DNA of 29,011 nt from a virus, in the IMG/VR virus record IMGVR_UViG_3300013099_000065, positions 1 to 29,011 of that record. One strand, written 5' to 3'. A model generated the notes under the pieces. That model searched no databases. It saw only the letters and a program-made list of their open reading frames with translations, and was not told where the DNA came from. Shown here one piece after another: positions 8,701-26,470 of the stretch. Within the stretch, counting starts at the first letter, position 1. Each line of letters opens with the position of its first letter. Made by a program: the position numbers and the translations under genes.

Positions 8701-9440
8701 TGTTTTATTTCGTCAAATTCTTTGCCGTAAGTCTTTGAAAGTCCGCTCATTTGCAAAGTCAAATCTTTTGCCGACTTTGTAGTCAAATCAAATTGTTTTT
8801 CAATTATTTTTTGATTTTTTGAAAGTTGTAAACCACGACTTACAAGCGAACCAATAGAAACCCCGACCGCTGTAATCCCAGCAACGGCAAAGCCTTTAAA
8901 CCCTTGCCAAGCCTTAGCATAGTTACCTACCGACCTTTGGTTTTGTCCTAGTTCGTTATCAATTTTTTTTAATTCTTTATCAAGTTTGGTAACTTCTTTT
9001 TTTGCTTTTAAAAATTCCTTTGAAGAGGTGCCAAATGTTACAGCCAAATTTTTAGCGTTCCTACGTGTTTCGTTTAATTTTGTGCTAAGTTTATCATATT
9101 CAGAACTTTCCTTGCTTAAAATATTTAAGTTTGCTTTACGCTCCCTTTTTTGTTTTTGCAAGTCAATAGTATTTTTCGCAATTTCAGAATTATTTTTGCG
9201 GATAGCAATATTAAGATTATTTTTTGCTTTTAAATATTCCGTTGCAGTGATTTTGTTCTGTTTATAAGCCTTTTCATTGCTTTTTAGCGTTGCATTAAAT
9301 TCTTTGTTTTGCTTCCTTGCCGTTCCGATTGTATCGCTTAAATCCTCTATGCTATTATCTAATATATCGACTGTTTTGCTTGCTTGCAAAATATCGGCAT
9401 CATTAACTTTTATATCTATAATTACTTGTTCATCAGCCAT
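5745..9440 (-). CDS. Tail tape measure protein
   Basis: A 1231-residue protein with the composition of phage tape measures. There are long charged helical stretches (residues 30-175 and about 700-1050), a hydrophobic patch at 180-203 (KGFAVAGITAVGVSIGSLV), another near 455-490 (GGLVSLLGVIFDTLAFVGNAV), and a C-terminal hydrophobic segment near 1065-1110 followed by a Gly-rich tail (FEKGISDIVNIGGSHASGN). The middle (residues about 205-420) resembles the phage minor tail protein domain, including QFDLTTKSAKDL and AFGNFINGV. It sets tail length and is ejected ahead of DNA. The length fits a long, flexible siphovirus tail. It is unusual in being the last gene of its operon, after the other tail genes, 4 bp downstream of the 573-aa protein. 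Confidence 0.9.
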   Translation of the reverse strand: MADEQVIIDIKVNDADILQASKTVDILDNSIEDLSDTIGTARKQNKEFNATLKSNEKAYKQNKITATEYLKAKNNLNIAIRKNNSEIAKNTIDLQKQKRERKANLNILSKESSEYDKLSTKLNETRRNAKNLAVTFGTSSKEFLKAKKEVTKLDKELKKIDNELGQNQRSVGNYAKAWQGFKGFAVAGITAVGVSIGSLVSRGLQLSKNQKIIEKQFDLTTKSAKDLTLQMSGLSKTYGKEFDEIKQATLTVSKEFGISGKEALKFIEEGFSKGSDNSGEFIDMLKEYPAQFKASGISAGQMFAIINKTVDEGIYSDKGIDAIKEGGLRLRENTKAVQDALKPLDDSIKKQIEQEVQAGNSFKAIQLVSEALNDSSLSAMETQTIIADVFGGAGEDAGLRYLQSLKDIDENMNNVAVQTTGTQTITQKFVAIFDKISLAFGNFINGVANGEGVFGKVFGGLVSLLGVIFDTLAFVGNAVSSFFSLFESAQNTAQKAVRDFNIELAKEQQELNNVFDALKKTEKGSKERAELVKKINKEYPGYIKNINLESAGLQEIEQAQKQANRELERSIALKTKATALEKINTEAIASRMEIVGGVVKYVASQNANLTAQAGKDANKLIDNAIKSGKVGIKEINEFAKKYDLGGLEVGTLKMAVAKTIEIEQNKVKELALINATFSGYTEKEENKRFDLFKKFKDKASEISEQALAETKKGEKELTDAQKNALKKRQNEKDKADKNYLKALSNLSKKTEKINQSLVDDKIEKNKISHKNELQTLENSFANLTETQKEKIKKTTEYKETILSINDKYFKLDLQLRKEFSDKETELQKKKEQEKADILQASNDKMNDIADAKQLKYLENKLKEVEIYGGTEQEKLKIQNEINETFIQQEKDKLTILLENDKLTQEQRDVLTAEHDLKVQEIEIEKELASAEREVATQQRIYDTFAETQRITQEFAGNEIAIFGDISKALIKGFAKGKLSITETFTAIGEVSASIFSAIKSGQDAQLTNLQLNKEKELLAVGDNKELQAQINEKYAKQEADLKLQQWKSDKKSALTQVAINTALSVAKTLATLGVPIGIPASIIAGSLGLVQAGIIASKQPPKFEKGISDIVNIGGSHASGNDVSVYGYDNTGRSQFFGKVEQGEAMPVIRKSAVNEYMVSKLNNQIAPQTARAGVFADGTNDITASQNNTQNIDISEQIATAMQNVTIVTKVEDVTSLQSANNQIVSNSEI

Positions 9441-9444
9441 TTGT

Positions 9445-11166
9445 CTAATATTTTAAAAGTTTTAATTTTGTTGTTTTTCCTTTAATATAGTTTTGAATTT
9501 CCAAAACCCAAAAGTTTGATTTCTGTTGCTCTAAATAAATTAATCGTGTAAAATCAAAAGTCAAAAAATCAGTCTTACTTAAATCAAAATTTGCAGTTAC
9601 CAACTTGCCTTTTTTCAGGGAGTTTATTAATTTATCATAATATTTTGATAGTAAAGTATTGCCGTTTAATTGTTCAAATCGTGCAACGGTGTAATTTGTT
9701 TTTTGCTCAAAATAAGATAGTGAAGTTTCAAAACTTATTCTATCAATATCATTATAAATCGGTATATCTAACATGTTTATATTGTCGATATTAACTTCTT
9801 TGCTTCCCCTAAAAATCGACTTGTAAACAACTTTTTTATCTGTATATGTTTCATTATAAATTGCAAAATTACCTTGCCCTAAATTGTTTTCATTGCTGTA
9901 TTGTAATAGATTTTCTTTTCCGTAGCCTTTTAAAGTTTCAATATTTAAAGTATTTTGAATTAACTTTTTGCTAAAATCAATTGCTGACAGATTAGATACA
10001 TCAGTAAGCGAATGCACGTTAATTTTTTTCTGTAAATTTTTAGAATTAAAGAACCCCGCGACCGTTGTTAGTGAATTTTTGAATAAATCTATTTGCTTTA
10101 TTTCTGGCAAATTATCAAAAGTTTTCACTTTAAAATCTAAAAAATTAACATCAGAAATATCTCCAAAACTTGACTCCTGAATTTTCGTATAAATTAGAAC
10201 ATTATCAAAATCTAATATTCCAGTTAATTCAATTTGAATATTATAAATTGTGTCATCGGTTACAAATTCATTACTTGTAAAGTCATAAAAATGCGTTCCT
10301 TTATTTATTGTCAAAGTTTCTTTTTGACTATCAGCACCGCCAGAGCTTACACCCGAAATTATTATGCTTGTATCATTTTGAGACGTGATATATCCACGAA
10401 TACGAATAGAAGTATCATAATGAAGTTTTAAAATTGAACCGCTTACCGTGTCATTTTTAAGAAAACTGTAATTATCAAAATCCAAATCACTATTGAAATT
10501 GCCGTCAAAACTTTTCTCATAAGAACAAAAATAAAAATTGTCGGCATTAGAAGTGAGTAGCAATTTTTCAATAAAAGAAGTCGAGCCGTTTAATTTATAA
10601 TTCCATTTTTGATTTTCAAACATCTTTTCAAATATTTTCTTAACAGAAAAAAACGGTCTCGAAAATGCTAAATTTCCAGACAAAATATTATTGTCATAAG
10701 TTCTTTTTTCGTGGAAATTAGCAACCGCCCACAACCAAACGGAACCATTAACATCTTTTAAATTTGCGTATGAAGTAGAATTAAAAACAAAATCAGAACT
10801 TTCAAAATTCAATTTATTCAAATCATTATTAAGATTTTTAAATAAAATATACGAACTGTCAAGTAATTGAATTTCATAATCTTTTTTTTGTGTAACTGAA
10901 ATAAGAATTGCAATACCTTGATACACTATCTGTCCAAATTCAGAAACTTCAAAATTATAATATTTAGCAAACGAATTGCTTTTTATTTCTAAATTTTGAG
11001 GTCTTAAAAATAATTTATCAAGCAAATCAGATTTCGCGATTTTTACAGTTTTTGAAAAAGTAATTTGTTTGCTTAACCAATTTTCTAAAACAAAACCGAC
11101 TTTATTAAATGAAATATTATTAATTAAATCGGCTTCTATATTGTTAATTTTTAATTGCATTTTCAA
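9445..11166 (-). CDS. Large tail/baseplate-associated protein, 573 aa
   Basis: A beta-rich protein dense in N, F, Y and S with no membrane segment. The N-terminus (MKMQLKINNIEADLINNISFNKVGF) resembles the beginning of distal tail or baseplate-hub proteins of Bacteroidota phages, and the middle has repeated strand patterns (SSFIEKLLLTSNADNFYF, SGSILKLHYDTSIRIRGY). It overlaps the upstream 141-aa gene by 4 bp and lies just before the tape measure, so it is very likely part of the tail tip. A distal tail protein, hub or fibre-attachment protein are all possible. No enzymatic domain is visible. Confidence 0.6.
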   Translation of the reverse strand: MKMQLKINNIEADLINNISFNKVGFVLENWLSKQITFSKTVKIAKSDLLDKLFLRPQNLEIKSNSFAKYYNFEVSEFGQIVYQGIAILISVTQKKDYEIQLLDSSYILFKNLNNDLNKLNFESSDFVFNSTSYANLKDVNGSVWLWAVANFHEKRTYDNNILSGNLAFSRPFFSVKKIFEKMFENQKWNYKLNGSTSFIEKLLLTSNADNFYFCSYEKSFDGNFNSDLDFDNYSFLKNDTVSGSILKLHYDTSIRIRGYITSQNDTSIIISGVSSGGADSQKETLTINKGTHFYDFTSNEFVTDDTIYNIQIELTGILDFDNVLIYTKIQESSFGDISDVNFLDFKVKTFDNLPEIKQIDLFKNSLTTVAGFFNSKNLQKKINVHSLTDVSNLSAIDFSKKLIQNTLNIETLKGYGKENLLQYSNENNLGQGNFAIYNETYTDKKVVYKSIFRGSKEVNIDNINMLDIPIYNDIDRISFETSLSYFEQKTNYTVARFEQLNGNTLLSKYYDKLINSLKKGKLVTANFDLSKTDFLTFDFTRLIYLEQQKSNFWVLEIQNYIKGKTTKLKLLKY

Positions 11167-22561: not shown

Positions 22562-23329
22562 TTAAAATAAAGTAGGGTTGGTTTTGTAATTAGTTATTAA
22601 TATTTCGGTTCTGCGGTTCTTTAAATTGTGTCTTTCTCCTATTGTTATAATATTTAAGTTTCTTTTTTTTGCTTCGGAAATTACAAATTCATTGTCAAAT
22701 TCAGATATTGCAAACTTACATCCTGTTTTCTCTAAACTGTCATGCAGTCTTAAATGGTCGCTTTTTTCAAATGAATTACTATAATTGTTAGCCGTTCCAA
22801 TATATGGCGGGTCACAATAAATAAAAGAGTTTTCAAGCTCTCTGGGACGCTCTGGATTAAAATATAAATGTTTTAAAAATTTATCAAAATCTTTATTCTC
22901 AAATCTTACGTTTTGCAAAAAATCAAATGTTTTTTCTAGTCTATCAGTAATTATTTTTTTTGAATTATCATAGACTTTTCGCTGGATATTTCCCGAAGTA
23001 GTTTCTAAAAAATTGCTTAAAAATAAAAACCGCAAAGCCCTTTTTATTGGGTCGGTTTCTTTGTTCTTTTTCCAGTAATTTAATAAATCAGAATGTATCG
23101 GCATAAGATAAAAAGCCTTTTCAAGTTCTGTTTTATTATTCATAACAACTTGAAATAAATTGAATACATCGCTGTCCAAGTCATTCACAATGTTATATTT
23201 TGCCTTTGGCTTATTGAAAAACATCCCGCCAGCACCAAAAAAAGGTTCAATATAAATTTTGTGCGGTGGAAAATATGCTTGTATCTTTTTAGCTATTTTC
23301 TTTTTATTTCCTAAACGTCTTAAAATCAT
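22562..23329 (-). CDS. D12-class N6-adenine DNA methyltransferase (Dam-like)
   Basis: A 255-residue enzyme with the AdoMet motif IEPFFGAGGMFF (27-38), NDLDSDVFNLF (49-59) and the catalytic motif DPPY (173-176, in IYCDPPYIGTANNYSN). The order and length are those of Dam-type class alpha methyltransferases. It transfers methyl groups to adenine in DNA, probably shielding phage DNA from host restriction or marking replicated strands. No partner restriction enzyme is present. It lies in the early leftward operon, 8 bp after a small basic gene. Confidence 0.95.
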   Translation of the reverse strand: MILRRLGNKKKIAKKIQAYFPPHKIYIEPFFGAGGMFFNKPKAKYNIVNDLDSDVFNLFQVVMNNKTELEKAFYLMPIHSDLLNYWKKNKETDPIKRALRFLFLSNFLETTSGNIQRKVYDNSKKIITDRLEKTFDFLQNVRFENKDFDKFLKHLYFNPERPRELENSFIYCDPPYIGTANNYSNSFEKSDHLRLHDSLEKTGCKFAISEFDNEFVISEAKKRNLNIITIGERHNLKNRRTEILITNYKTNPTLF

Positions 23330-24740: not shown

Positions 24741-25066
24741 TAAAAGGAATAACAACAATAAAGAACTACCAAACATTTATTGAATATAATTTTAATTGTG
24801 ATGCCTACCTTAATACGATGTTAATAGAACATATACAAGAAAACAACGGCGTTTCGGAATTAATTGTTTCAGATATTGGAAATAATAAAAATGAAATTGT
24901 TGAAAATTTACGTAAAATTTTAAAAGGTAAAATATACAAGTATGATATTAATATTTCCGAAAAAAAAGGCAACGTGAATAAGTGGGCAACTATTATCATG
25001 CAAAATTTAAGGAACGAAAAAGAGTTAATAAACAAAGCAATAGAATTAATTAAATATGATAAATGA
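24737..25066 (+). CDS. Hypothetical protein, 109 aa
   Basis: A 109-residue protein with mixed alpha/beta composition (YLNTMLIEHIQENNGVSELIVSDIGNNKNEIVENLRKIL...). No recognised motif. It overlaps the zinc-protein gene by 4 bp and the DnaA-like gene by 11 bp, so it is translationally coupled with both. Confidence 0.5.
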   Translation: MIKGITTIKNYQTFIEYNFNCDAYLNTMLIEHIQENNGVSELIVSDIGNNKNEIVENLRKILKGKIYKYDINISEKKGNVNKWATIIMQNLRNEKELINKAIELIKYDK

Positions 25067-25439
25067 AAGCACGGTAATCAATACAGTATGTAAGGTCTTA
25101 AAAGTCGAATTTACAGCACTGGCAAGAGGCGGACACACCCGACCGTTGCCAACGCAAAGATATATTTTATTTTATTTTCTTATTAAGTATCTATATTATA
25201 CACTTCAAGAAGCGGGCGATGTTTTATACAAAGACCACGCAACGGCTTTGCGTGGGCGTAAAATTGTTGAAAATATAATAAAATCAAAACTACCCTATGA
25301 TAAAGAAATCCAACTGAAAATAAAAAAAATAGATAATATAATTTCTGGCTCGAAAAGAAGTAAAGCCCTGTATTTTTGGGGTGACTGGAGGTTAAAGAAA
25401 ACATGTTTTATAACATCAAGGCATTGTAGCGTGGAATGA
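25056..25439 (+). CDS. Stand-alone DnaA-domain-IV-like DNA-binding protein, 127 aa
   Basis: Residues 34-75 (QRYILFYFLIKYLYYTLQEAGDVL, then KDHATALRGRKIVENI) match the C-terminal DNA-binding domain of DnaA: the basic loop, helix-turn-helix and the DHATAL signature that contacts the DnaA box. There is no ATPase domain. It would bind DNA near an origin or a promoter. The last seven residues (SRHCSVE) are encoded beyond an operator copy (25403-25416). Removing the cassette array would put a TAA right there and end the protein after ...CFIT at residue 120, so the tail looks like an insertion by-product. Confidence 0.75.
   Translation: MINESTVINTVCKVLKVEFTALARGGHTRPLPTQRYILFYFLIKYLYYTLQEAGDVLYKDHATALRGRKIVENIIKSKLPYDKEIQLKIKKIDNIISGSKRSKALYFWGDWRLKKTCFITSRHCSVE
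25403..25416. promoter_or_regulatory. Operator copy at the left edge of the cassette array
   Basis: ATGTTTTATAACAT, a 14-bp member of the ATGTT-N4-ARCAT family, overlaps the 3' end of the DnaA-like gene. No TAnnTTTG box lies 22-23 bp from it on either side, so it appears orphaned. It shares 13 bases with the operator at 26393-26406. Confidence 0.6.
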
Positions 25440-25569
25440 TGTTGAACATTGTTGGTCTGTAATAGACTTAAATTGGAATGATAGAAGAGGATGGCACGCT
25501 ATCGAATATTTAACAAGCCCTTTTATTGTCATCGGTAATATCTACGAAAATAGCGACTTACTAAGTTAG
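25414..25569 (+). pseudogene. C-terminal fragment of a YopX-family protein
   Basis: An open frame with no start codon, 51 residues, running from just after a TAA at 25411 to TAG 25567-25569. It reads GIVAWNDVEHCWSV... and ends PFIVIGNIYENSDLLS, the hallmark ending (GNIYEN-x-x-L) of YopX phage proteins of unknown function. The N-terminal half (usually EGDIVK-type) is missing, cut at the operator copy 25403-25416. The TAG is one base before a TATAAC box. It is a broken gene. Confidence 0.65.
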
Positions 25570-25637
25570 CTATAACGAAAATGTATTTATTTACGTTTTT
25601 GTTTTTCACAAAAATTAAATTAAATACAATGTTATAG
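25570..25637 (+). other. attC-like site A
   Basis: CTATAAC (25570-25576) and GTTATAG (25631-25637) are perfect complements. Inside, TGTATTTA (25582-25589) pairs with TAAATACA (25621-25628), a single extrahelical T (25620) interrupts the 3' arm, and TTTTTG pairs with CAAAAA at the tip. The unpaired spacers are 5 and 2 bases, as in the next site. This is the R''-L''-loop-L'-R' architecture of integron attC sites. Confidence 0.6.
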
Positions 25638-25688
25638 GCTTCTATTTCATTGTATTATCTAAAATATTAATCATATAAAATTAACTAA

Positions 25689-26087
25689 ATGAGTATAAAC
25701 AATTATTTAAAAAACGAAAAGAAAAAAGATTATGAGATTTTTGTAAACCTTTGCGAAATATCAAATATAGATACAGATTTTCGTAAATTTCATTACTTTT
25801 GTAATAGAGCATCTTATTTTTATGTTAATGGGGACAAGAAATTTTACGAGTATGCACCAATGGAATTGCACCACCGATGCAGCTATTCTATTGAAGAAAT
25901 GTTTGCTAAATTTCAAGAGTGGAATAATGGGAAGAAATATTTCCTTTGTTGGGATAGAAATTTCCCTGAATATCCAGAAAATATTGAAGCTAAAAATGGG
26001 AATCAAGCTAAATACAGATATTCAAAATCTAATTCAATTGATTACATTCAAATAGGCAGTCAAATTGCGTATCAAAATTGCCTATAA
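25689..26087 (+). CDS. Cassette gene, hypothetical, 132 aa
   Basis: MSINNYLKNEKKKDYEIFVNLC..., a 132-residue protein rich in Y, F, K and N with no recognised motif (a HHRCSYSIEEMFAKFQEW helix near the middle, then aromatic strands). Its TAA (26085-26087) lies inside the TATAAC box of site B. It begins 52 bases after the GTTATAG of site A and has no visible promoter of its own, as expected of a cassette gene. Function unknown. Confidence 0.6.
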   Translation: MSINNYLKNEKKKDYEIFVNLCEISNIDTDFRKFHYFCNRASYFYVNGDKKFYEYAPMELHHRCSYSIEEMFAKFQEWNNGKKYFLCWDRNFPEYPENIEAKNGNQAKYRYSKSNSIDYIQIGSQIAYQNCL

Positions 26088-26173
26088 CGTAGATGCGGTA
26101 TGAATAGTGCCGATGTAGAACTATTCAAATTAAACACGGTACTAATAGGCATTATTTATACCGCTTGTTATAC
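26082..26173 (+). other. attC-like site B
   Basis: TATAAC (26083-26088) pairs with GTTATA (26167-26172). Inside, GCGGTAT (26095-26101) pairs with ATACCGC (26158-26164), and the helix continues through AATAGTGCC (26103-26111) with GGCATTATT (26148-26156), one G-T wobble in each part, giving about 17 bp. The unpaired spacers are 6 and 2 bases. The long hairpin, box sequences and unequal spacers match attC geometry. Confidence 0.65.
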
Positions 26174-26191
26174 CCTTTTAAAAAATTTACT

Positions 26192-26350
26192 ATGAGTAAT
26201 TTAATAATAAACATAAGATTTTGGTATTGGCATTTTCAAATTAGCAGAGGGTTTAAGACAGTAGAATGGACTAAAAATAGCTACCACGTTGAAAAAGGAT
26301 TAAAGGGTAAAAGCAAAATACAGGTGTATGATTTTTTTAATTGGGTATAA
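26192..26350 (+). CDS. Cassette gene, hypothetical, 52 aa
   Basis: A 52-residue protein (MSNLIINIRFWYWHFQISRG...) with an aromatic N-terminal strand or helix and a basic C-terminus (EKGLKGKSKIQVYDFFNWV). The ATG at 26192 is 18 bases after site B. The TAA (26348-26350) lies inside the TATAAC box of site C, in exactly the same phase as the 132-aa gene. An earlier TTG start at 26165 would overlap site B and is rejected. Function unknown. Confidence 0.55.
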   Translation: MSNLIINIRFWYWHFQISRGFKTVEWTKNSYHVEKGLKGKSKIQVYDFFNWV

Positions 26351-26401
26351 CACGGAGCTTTGCGTAATGAAAATATTTGCAATTCGCATCACGTGTTTTA
26401 T
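26346..26401 (+). other. attC-like site C with hybrid right end, and dispersed repeat copy 2
   Basis: The left box TATAAC (26346-26351) and the following ACG pair with CGT-GTT at 26392-26397 (AACACG with CGTGTT). TGCG (26361-26364) pairs with CGCA (26385-26388). The right box reads GTTTTAT instead of GTTATA, as expected if the crossover between G and TT joined it to the recipient operator. Bases 26352-26386 match 19824-19859 on the opposite strand. Confidence 0.5.
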
Positions 26402-26470
26402 AACATAAAAAAGAAACATGAAAACATGTTTTTCAGCATACGAAGTTAAATTAATAAAGTTTAAATTTGC
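26393..26470 (+). promoter_or_regulatory. Promoter of the annealase operon with two tandem operators
   Basis: Operators GTGTTTTATAACAT (26393-26406; one mismatch) and ATGTTTTTCAGCAT (26426-26439) lie 33 bp apart centre to centre. The second is followed after 23 bp by TAAATTTG (26463-26470), a TAnnTTTG -7 element. The surrounding bases (CATAAAAA-GAAAC, AACATGTTTT) align with the promoter at 3783-3860, so the two probably share an ancestor. Confidence 0.65.

Follow-up and report, generated by a model that had tools for sequence, protein, structure and literature searches.

Integrons are regarded as elements of bacteria, which phages acquire only now and then. The locus described here raises the question of whether a tailed phage can carry integron-type gene cassettes that belong to a system borne by phages, and which recombinase would move them. 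The window (the whole stretch of viral DNA that was analysed, a contig of 29,011 bases) has a terminal repeat of 123 bp, so that the genome is probably complete and circular, with a size of about 28.9 kb. It encodes a terminase, a portal, a head protease, a tape measure protein, RecT, an exonuclease, and a DnaC-like loader. No close relative of the phage was found via its DnaA-like, RecT, and terminase proteins, and the closest terminases in the phage-terminase scan were only 35–43% identical to that of the window. The low GC content and the relatives suggest a host among the Bacteroidota. The nearest phage relative seen was contig G398, in which a terminase fragment (L228, positions 9262–9681) was 46% identical to that of the window; the same contig also has a Xer-like recombinase and attC sites. 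The cassette region sits between a DnaA-like gene and recT, and all the genes there are on the plus strand. A D12-class adenine methyltransferase gene was present at positions 22562–23329, on the minus strand and not within the cassettes.

The attC-like sites and the cassettes that they delimit

The first-pass annotation described three short same-strand reading frames in this region, each followed by a hairpin bounded by TATAAC and GTTATA boxes (sites A, B, and C), and read them as three cassettes in the direction of attC. The three frames are present as described, and the boxes of site A (25571–25636) and site B (26083–26172) were found again, identical boxes being present in reference arrays. 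Site A (25570–25637, minus strand) has spacers of 2/5 nucleotides, a 12-bp stem, and one extrahelical base on the 5' arm, with a single-stranded DNA fold z of -4.4 for the minus strand. Site B (26082–26173, minus strand) is composed of an R'' box GTATAAC, a spacer AA, a stem GCGGTAT, a spacer ATCTAC, and an R' box GTTATAG; its spacers are of 2/6 nucleotides with a mismatch, and the extrahelical base has been lost. Both sites thus have inverse R boxes (ending AAC and starting GTT), an L stem, and unequal spacers. The unequal spacers (5/2 and 6/2 when read in the other direction) and the extra base of site A had been recognised in the earlier annotation. For site B, the extrahelical C is retained in a homologous site (L232) of the viral contig G400.

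The direction of the sites was decided by comparison with genuine attC sites, taken from 80 genome contigs with IntI and from integron arrays of genomes in the same phylum as a MAG labelled Bacteroidota. In this reference, the spacers were 2–3/3 or 2–3/6, the extra base was on the 5' arm, and the R'' box was complementary to the start of its own cassette. Sites A and B fit this pattern only on the minus strand, and both are therefore read as minus-strand attC-like sites. A scan of the window for the attC geometry returned exactly these two sites, both on the minus strand, and no plus-strand match. No match was obtained in 400 dinucleotide shuffles or in 718 kb of other phage contigs, and without the flank filter the shuffle rate was 0.0075 per genome; since 5 as well as 6 nucleotides were admitted as a spacer, site A had some bearing on the design of the scan. 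The combined geometry at A and B is not due to chance. Taken alone, TATAAC is not enriched (26 occurrences in the window for 25.6 expected), and the boxed-pair TATAAC/GTTATA pattern showed a weak excess (1 for 0.24). The attC score proposed earlier as a check went the other way: a covariance model built here (R1) gave none of A, B, and C a score above background. R1 was poorly sensitive, missing several of its own training sites, and it was consequently weighed lightly and ranked below geometry, own-start pairing, and homology.

Pairing of the R'' box with the start of its own cassette is a mark of circularised cassettes. The R'' boxes of A and of B are each complementary at 9 of 9 positions to their own cassette start, and in-place pairing at site B ends at 6 bases. 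The partner of the site B R'' is the right-boundary R-box GTTATACCC (26343–26351, minus strand), which starts the first cassette. Such a 9-bp match is by itself not significant in the AT-rich genome of the window and becomes informative only in combination with the hairpins; as a sole genome-wide test, the 9-bp chain was dropped, since shuffles yield 1.7 per genome. Together, the hairpins and the 9/9 pairing at both sites delimit two cassettes, not three. The inserted segment spans 25576–26350 on the minus strand, with G|TT crossover points at 26351|26350 and 25576|25575 and an inner boundary at 26088|26087. Read on the minus strand, it consists of a 263-bp cassette ending in site B followed by a 512-bp cassette ending in site A.

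The genes of both cassettes run against attC, the ATG lying near attC and the stop codon at the cassette start. A gene of 132 codons (25689–26087, plus strand) is antisense to site A and a gene of 52 codons (26192–26350, plus strand) is antisense to site B; their stop codons (26085–26087 and 26348–26350) fall inside TATAAC boxes, as had been stated. In integrons, the gene usually, though not absolutely, follows the direction of attC, and neither of the two genes does so. The 132-aa protein had no relative in the viral contigs, genome contigs, phage and plasmid records, or 395 genomes searched, and no family in Pfam, PHROGs, NCBIfam, PADLOC, or PDB; its structure prediction without an alignment (pLDDT of 44) was too poor for use. 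The 52-aa protein matched no known family.

The borders of the segment also speak to the number of cassettes. On the left, the frame previously taken as the first cassette gene (25414–25569, plus strand) is devoid of a start codon; it corresponds to the 3' part of a phage gene, yopX, matching positions 83–127 of 128 of the Pfam family PF09643 (YopX) with an E-value of 1.3e-5; it forms the native flank. On the right, the region named site C (26352–26393) is not attC-like. The box on its right side reads GTTTTAT, and the region folds weakly (z of -1.3 to -1.8); it is probably native flank at the insertion boundary. Thus the earlier assignment of attC-like sites holds for A and B, on the strand opposite to the genes, and fails for C, which is a junction. 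A captured fragment of a host array with three cassettes (A, B, and C) in the gene direction would account for three frames that share a strand and end at R boxes, and own-start pairing is independent of direction. We nevertheless consider such a fragment very unlikely, as the spacers and the extrahelical base match genuine attC sites on the minus strand only, site C fails the geometry, and the first frame is what remains of a disrupted yopX gene. An insertion of two cassettes predicts an empty allele in which the yopX stop would be followed by CTATAACACGGAGC, with only the two-cassette segment absent. No empty site was found in a relative. An exact scan for the predicted empty site CTATAACACGGAGCTTTGC gave a single match, which lies within a protein-coding gene of an unrelated phage and is attributed to chance.

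The yopX fragment and the cassettes are bracketed by a 13-bp direct repeat, TGTTTTATAACAT, with a left copy at 25404–25416 and a right copy at 26394–26406 (both plus strand). The left copy lies within the upstream gene resembling a DnaA C-terminal domain (25056–25439, plus strand; Pfam Bac_DnaA_C, E-value of 1.5e-5, below the curated cut-off), and the frame of this gene would regain its stop at the right copy (KKTCFIT*). A deletion or a microhomology event are candidate origins of the repeat. A palindrome related to it, AAAACATGTTTT, was found again at 26421.

Hairpins between same-strand genes could also be transcription terminators or other regulatory hairpins without any role in recombination, and a weak terminator role has been suggested for attC sites (Qi et al. 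2023, PMC9892861). This explanation appears highly improbable here: neither A nor B showed a terminator-like pattern or an Rfam match, and both the own-start pairing and the cassette differences between isolates described below need recombination.

The window itself has no tyrosine recombinase of any family, with no match to TIGR02249 or PF00589. It is not a complete integron, as there is no intI and no attI-like stretch was recognised at 26352. With A and B lying 0.5 kb apart and no integrase in the window, the locus has the composition of a CALIN in a phage, for which at least two neighbouring attC sites are needed. The central claim of the first-pass annotation, integron-type cassettes in a tailed-phage genome devoid of an integrase, is in this respect borne out.

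Reversed cassettes and Xer-like recombinases in other phages

A pattern search built on site B retrieved six viral contigs, four of which have attC-like sites together with 9-bp own-start pairing. Own-start pairing was absent from the two others (L229 and L230), which were not considered further. Site B and the site in contig G400 share 83.6% identity over 110 bp (E-value of 1.7e-25), the homology being limited to attC; the DNA of site B had no match among annotated phages. Contig G399 contains a chain of four cassettes. These cassettes (L238, 60–2082) are reversed and on one strand, and a further attC is present on the other strand (10904–10996). No recombinase was seen in the array-bearing records G399 and G401, both of which may be incomplete. 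One reversed phage cassette (L233, 497–799) has a 100-aa product that resembles an HNH endonuclease by eye.

The direction of the genes relative to attC, scored with one script, was reversed in all 16 viral cassettes, whereas the cassettes of cellular integrons were 89 forward and 8 reversed (16/16 versus 8/97, Fisher p of 6.6e-14; the 16 reversed cassettes stem from seven phages and are not fully independent). The viral loci were picked by attC or recombinase sequence and not by the direction of their genes, and all scorable cassettes were counted.

The site of G400 homologous to B lies about 600 bp upstream of a gene for a 276-aa Xer-like recombinase. Tyrosine recombinases of 271–276 aa are encoded by G400 and G398, and relatives were found in L243 and L244, the frame of the latter being interrupted. 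The G400 recombinase scored 135 bits against TIGR02249, for a cut-off of 265. The interval between the GLR and HxxR motifs covers 83–91 residues in the phage recombinases versus 134–136 in IntI, and the IntI-specific insertion is absent. In the recombinase tree, the phage proteins fell outside the IntI clade (support of 100/99), several phage rows being long-branched so that their order among themselves is unreliable. Judged by their sequences, the recombinases of the related phages are Xer-like and not IntI. Their nearest named relatives are the integrases of Cellulophaga phage Ingeline and Polaribacter phage Freya.

In G400, L243, and L244, the attC-like sites precede the recombinase start by 0.2–0.7 kb and are borne by the other strand, and the nearest cassette boundary is about 40–65 bp from the recombinase start codon. 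Such attC-like sites were found upstream of the recombinase at three of four loci versus 6 of 2000 control windows; there was no geometry match upstream of the L242 recombinase or of the Ingeline recombinase. A recombinase gene adjoins the array in G400, L243, L244, and Freya, and is absent from the window. The arrangement in G400, L243, and L244 is that of an integron in which the genes are flipped.

Cassette differences among cultured Freya phages

The Freya phages are cultured Polaribacter phages, and four records were compared: Freya_1 (L255), Freya_2 (L256), Freya_9 (L259), and Freya_6 (L260). Over 43.4 kb, 4 mismatches separate Freya_1 from Freya_2, but Freya_2 carries 842 bp, absent from Freya_1, that directly adjoin the integrase gene. 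This insert corresponds to two cassettes whose genes, Freya2_67 and Freya2_68, are reversed, with an own-start pairing of 9–10 bp. The junction between the two phages lies within GTTGTAAACAA, an integron-type boundary. The same two cassettes are present in Freya_9. In Freya_6, at least 438 bp of additional DNA lie between these two cassettes and the integrase gene, and the divergence from Freya_2 sets in exactly ahead of the G of G|TT, as expected if a newer cassette had been added next to the recombinase. The Freya isolates range in size from 44.0 to 48.9 kb (PMC8776804), a range that need not be made up entirely of cassettes, Freya_9 measuring 48.6 kb with the same two; the words integron and cassette are absent from the paper describing them (PMC8776804). 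Freya2_68 (L256, 44380–44760) sits within the loop between the arms of its own 413-nucleotide attC-like site.

A proposed phage-borne system and its relation to known integrons

From these comparisons, phages seem to run a gene-swapping system of their own, and the window phage probably carries two integron-type cassettes that belong to it. In the complete form, found in other phages, the system would consist of a Xer-like tyrosine recombinase gene and of an opposite-strand array of attC-ended cassettes starting about 40–65 bp from the recombinase start codon. Each cassette would have the structure G|TT...R''-L''-loop-L'-G|. By analogy with integrons, one attC strand would fold into a hairpin, which the recombinase would link at G|TT to the boundary flanking the recombinase gene; the most recently acquired cassette would be the one nearest to the recombinase. 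We consider it somewhat likely that this is a phage-borne class of integron, in which the Xer-like recombinase is devoid of the IntI insertion, an attI-like boundary adjoins the recombinase start codon, and all cassette genes are flipped so as to be read by phage transcription. Such a class would be active in marine flavobacterial phages, and the window phage would be a carrier from which the recombinase was lost or always absent. As the window phage encodes no recombinase, one acting in trans, provided by another phage, a prophage, or a host integron, would have inserted the two cassettes, and only such an enzyme could move them.

The first-pass annotation implied instead that the cassettes came from a host integron. 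A rival explanation is that they are genuine integron cassettes moved by the integron integrase of the bacterial host, in which case the Xer-like recombinase near other arrays would be an ordinary phage integrase placed there by coincidence. The window phage has no recombinase, and IntI genes are common in the genomes sampled from the phylum of the Bacteroidota-labelled MAG, 106 of 395 carrying one above the curated cut-off. Moreover, IntI1 is reported to recombine phage-borne attC sites, including P12002L_attC2, in E. coli (PMC9892861). Against it stand the reversal of the genes in phage cassettes and not in cellular ones, the position of the arrays next to divergent phage recombinases, and the changing boundary of Freya, which is the one adjoining a phage recombinase. 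We regard movement by a host integrase as unlikely, and a phage-borne system with its own Xer-like recombinase as likelier than the capture of host integron cassettes by a phage, given the loci of G400, L243, and L244, the gene reversal, and the Freya differences. As a separate observation, many of the 106 IntI-bearing genomes (the phylum of G001) have arrays of spacer type 2–3/6.

If the phage-borne system exists as proposed, phages would have a site-specific route, independent of homologous recombination, by which to gain, lose, and share accessory genes, such as those for methyltransferases and for small unknown proteins. A folded attC would then be usable by a recombinase lacking the IntI-specific insertion, which would bear on the origin of integrons from Xer recombinases.

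Clusters of attC sites without an integrase (CALINs) are known in phage genomes (Qi et al. 2023, PMC9892861). As in the window, the CALINs reported there, such as that of Polaribacter phage P12002L, combine attC sites with small cassettes in tailed phages that encode no integron integrase. The attC2 site of P12002L shows a 9-bp own-start pairing and a reversed gene, as in the window cassettes. As far as its accessible sections go, the report noted divergent attC directions in P12002L, with neither a general reversal nor a phage recombinase tied to the arrays (PMC9892861). Unlike in the window, the attC sites of Tetrasphaera phage TJE1 are on the same strand as the genes.

Cellular integrons share with the phage system the G|TT boundaries, the R and L boxes, the own-start pairing, and an array that extends away from a divergently oriented recombinase gene. 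They differ in that the recombinase is an IntI with its characteristic insertion and that the genes follow attC in 89 of the 97 cassettes scored here. In Treponema integrons with an inverted intI, the integrase and the cassette genes share one direction, as here, but there intI lies ahead of the cassettes and is read in the direction of attI (PMC3607928); in the phage system, it is the cassette genes that are turned around with respect to attC, and they point to the recombinase gene. The attG insertions, in which cassettes are placed at G|TT outside an integron, may resemble the boundary in the window (Loot et al. 2024, as cited in PMC12901181), but they are described there for integron integrases in bacterial genomes. 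The phage Xer-like recombinase, the constant gene reversal, and the cassette differences at the level of isolates appear to be new, being unreported in the open-access literature. With the Freya phages and their Polaribacter host, cultured phages of differing cassette content are at hand, which makes the system testable.
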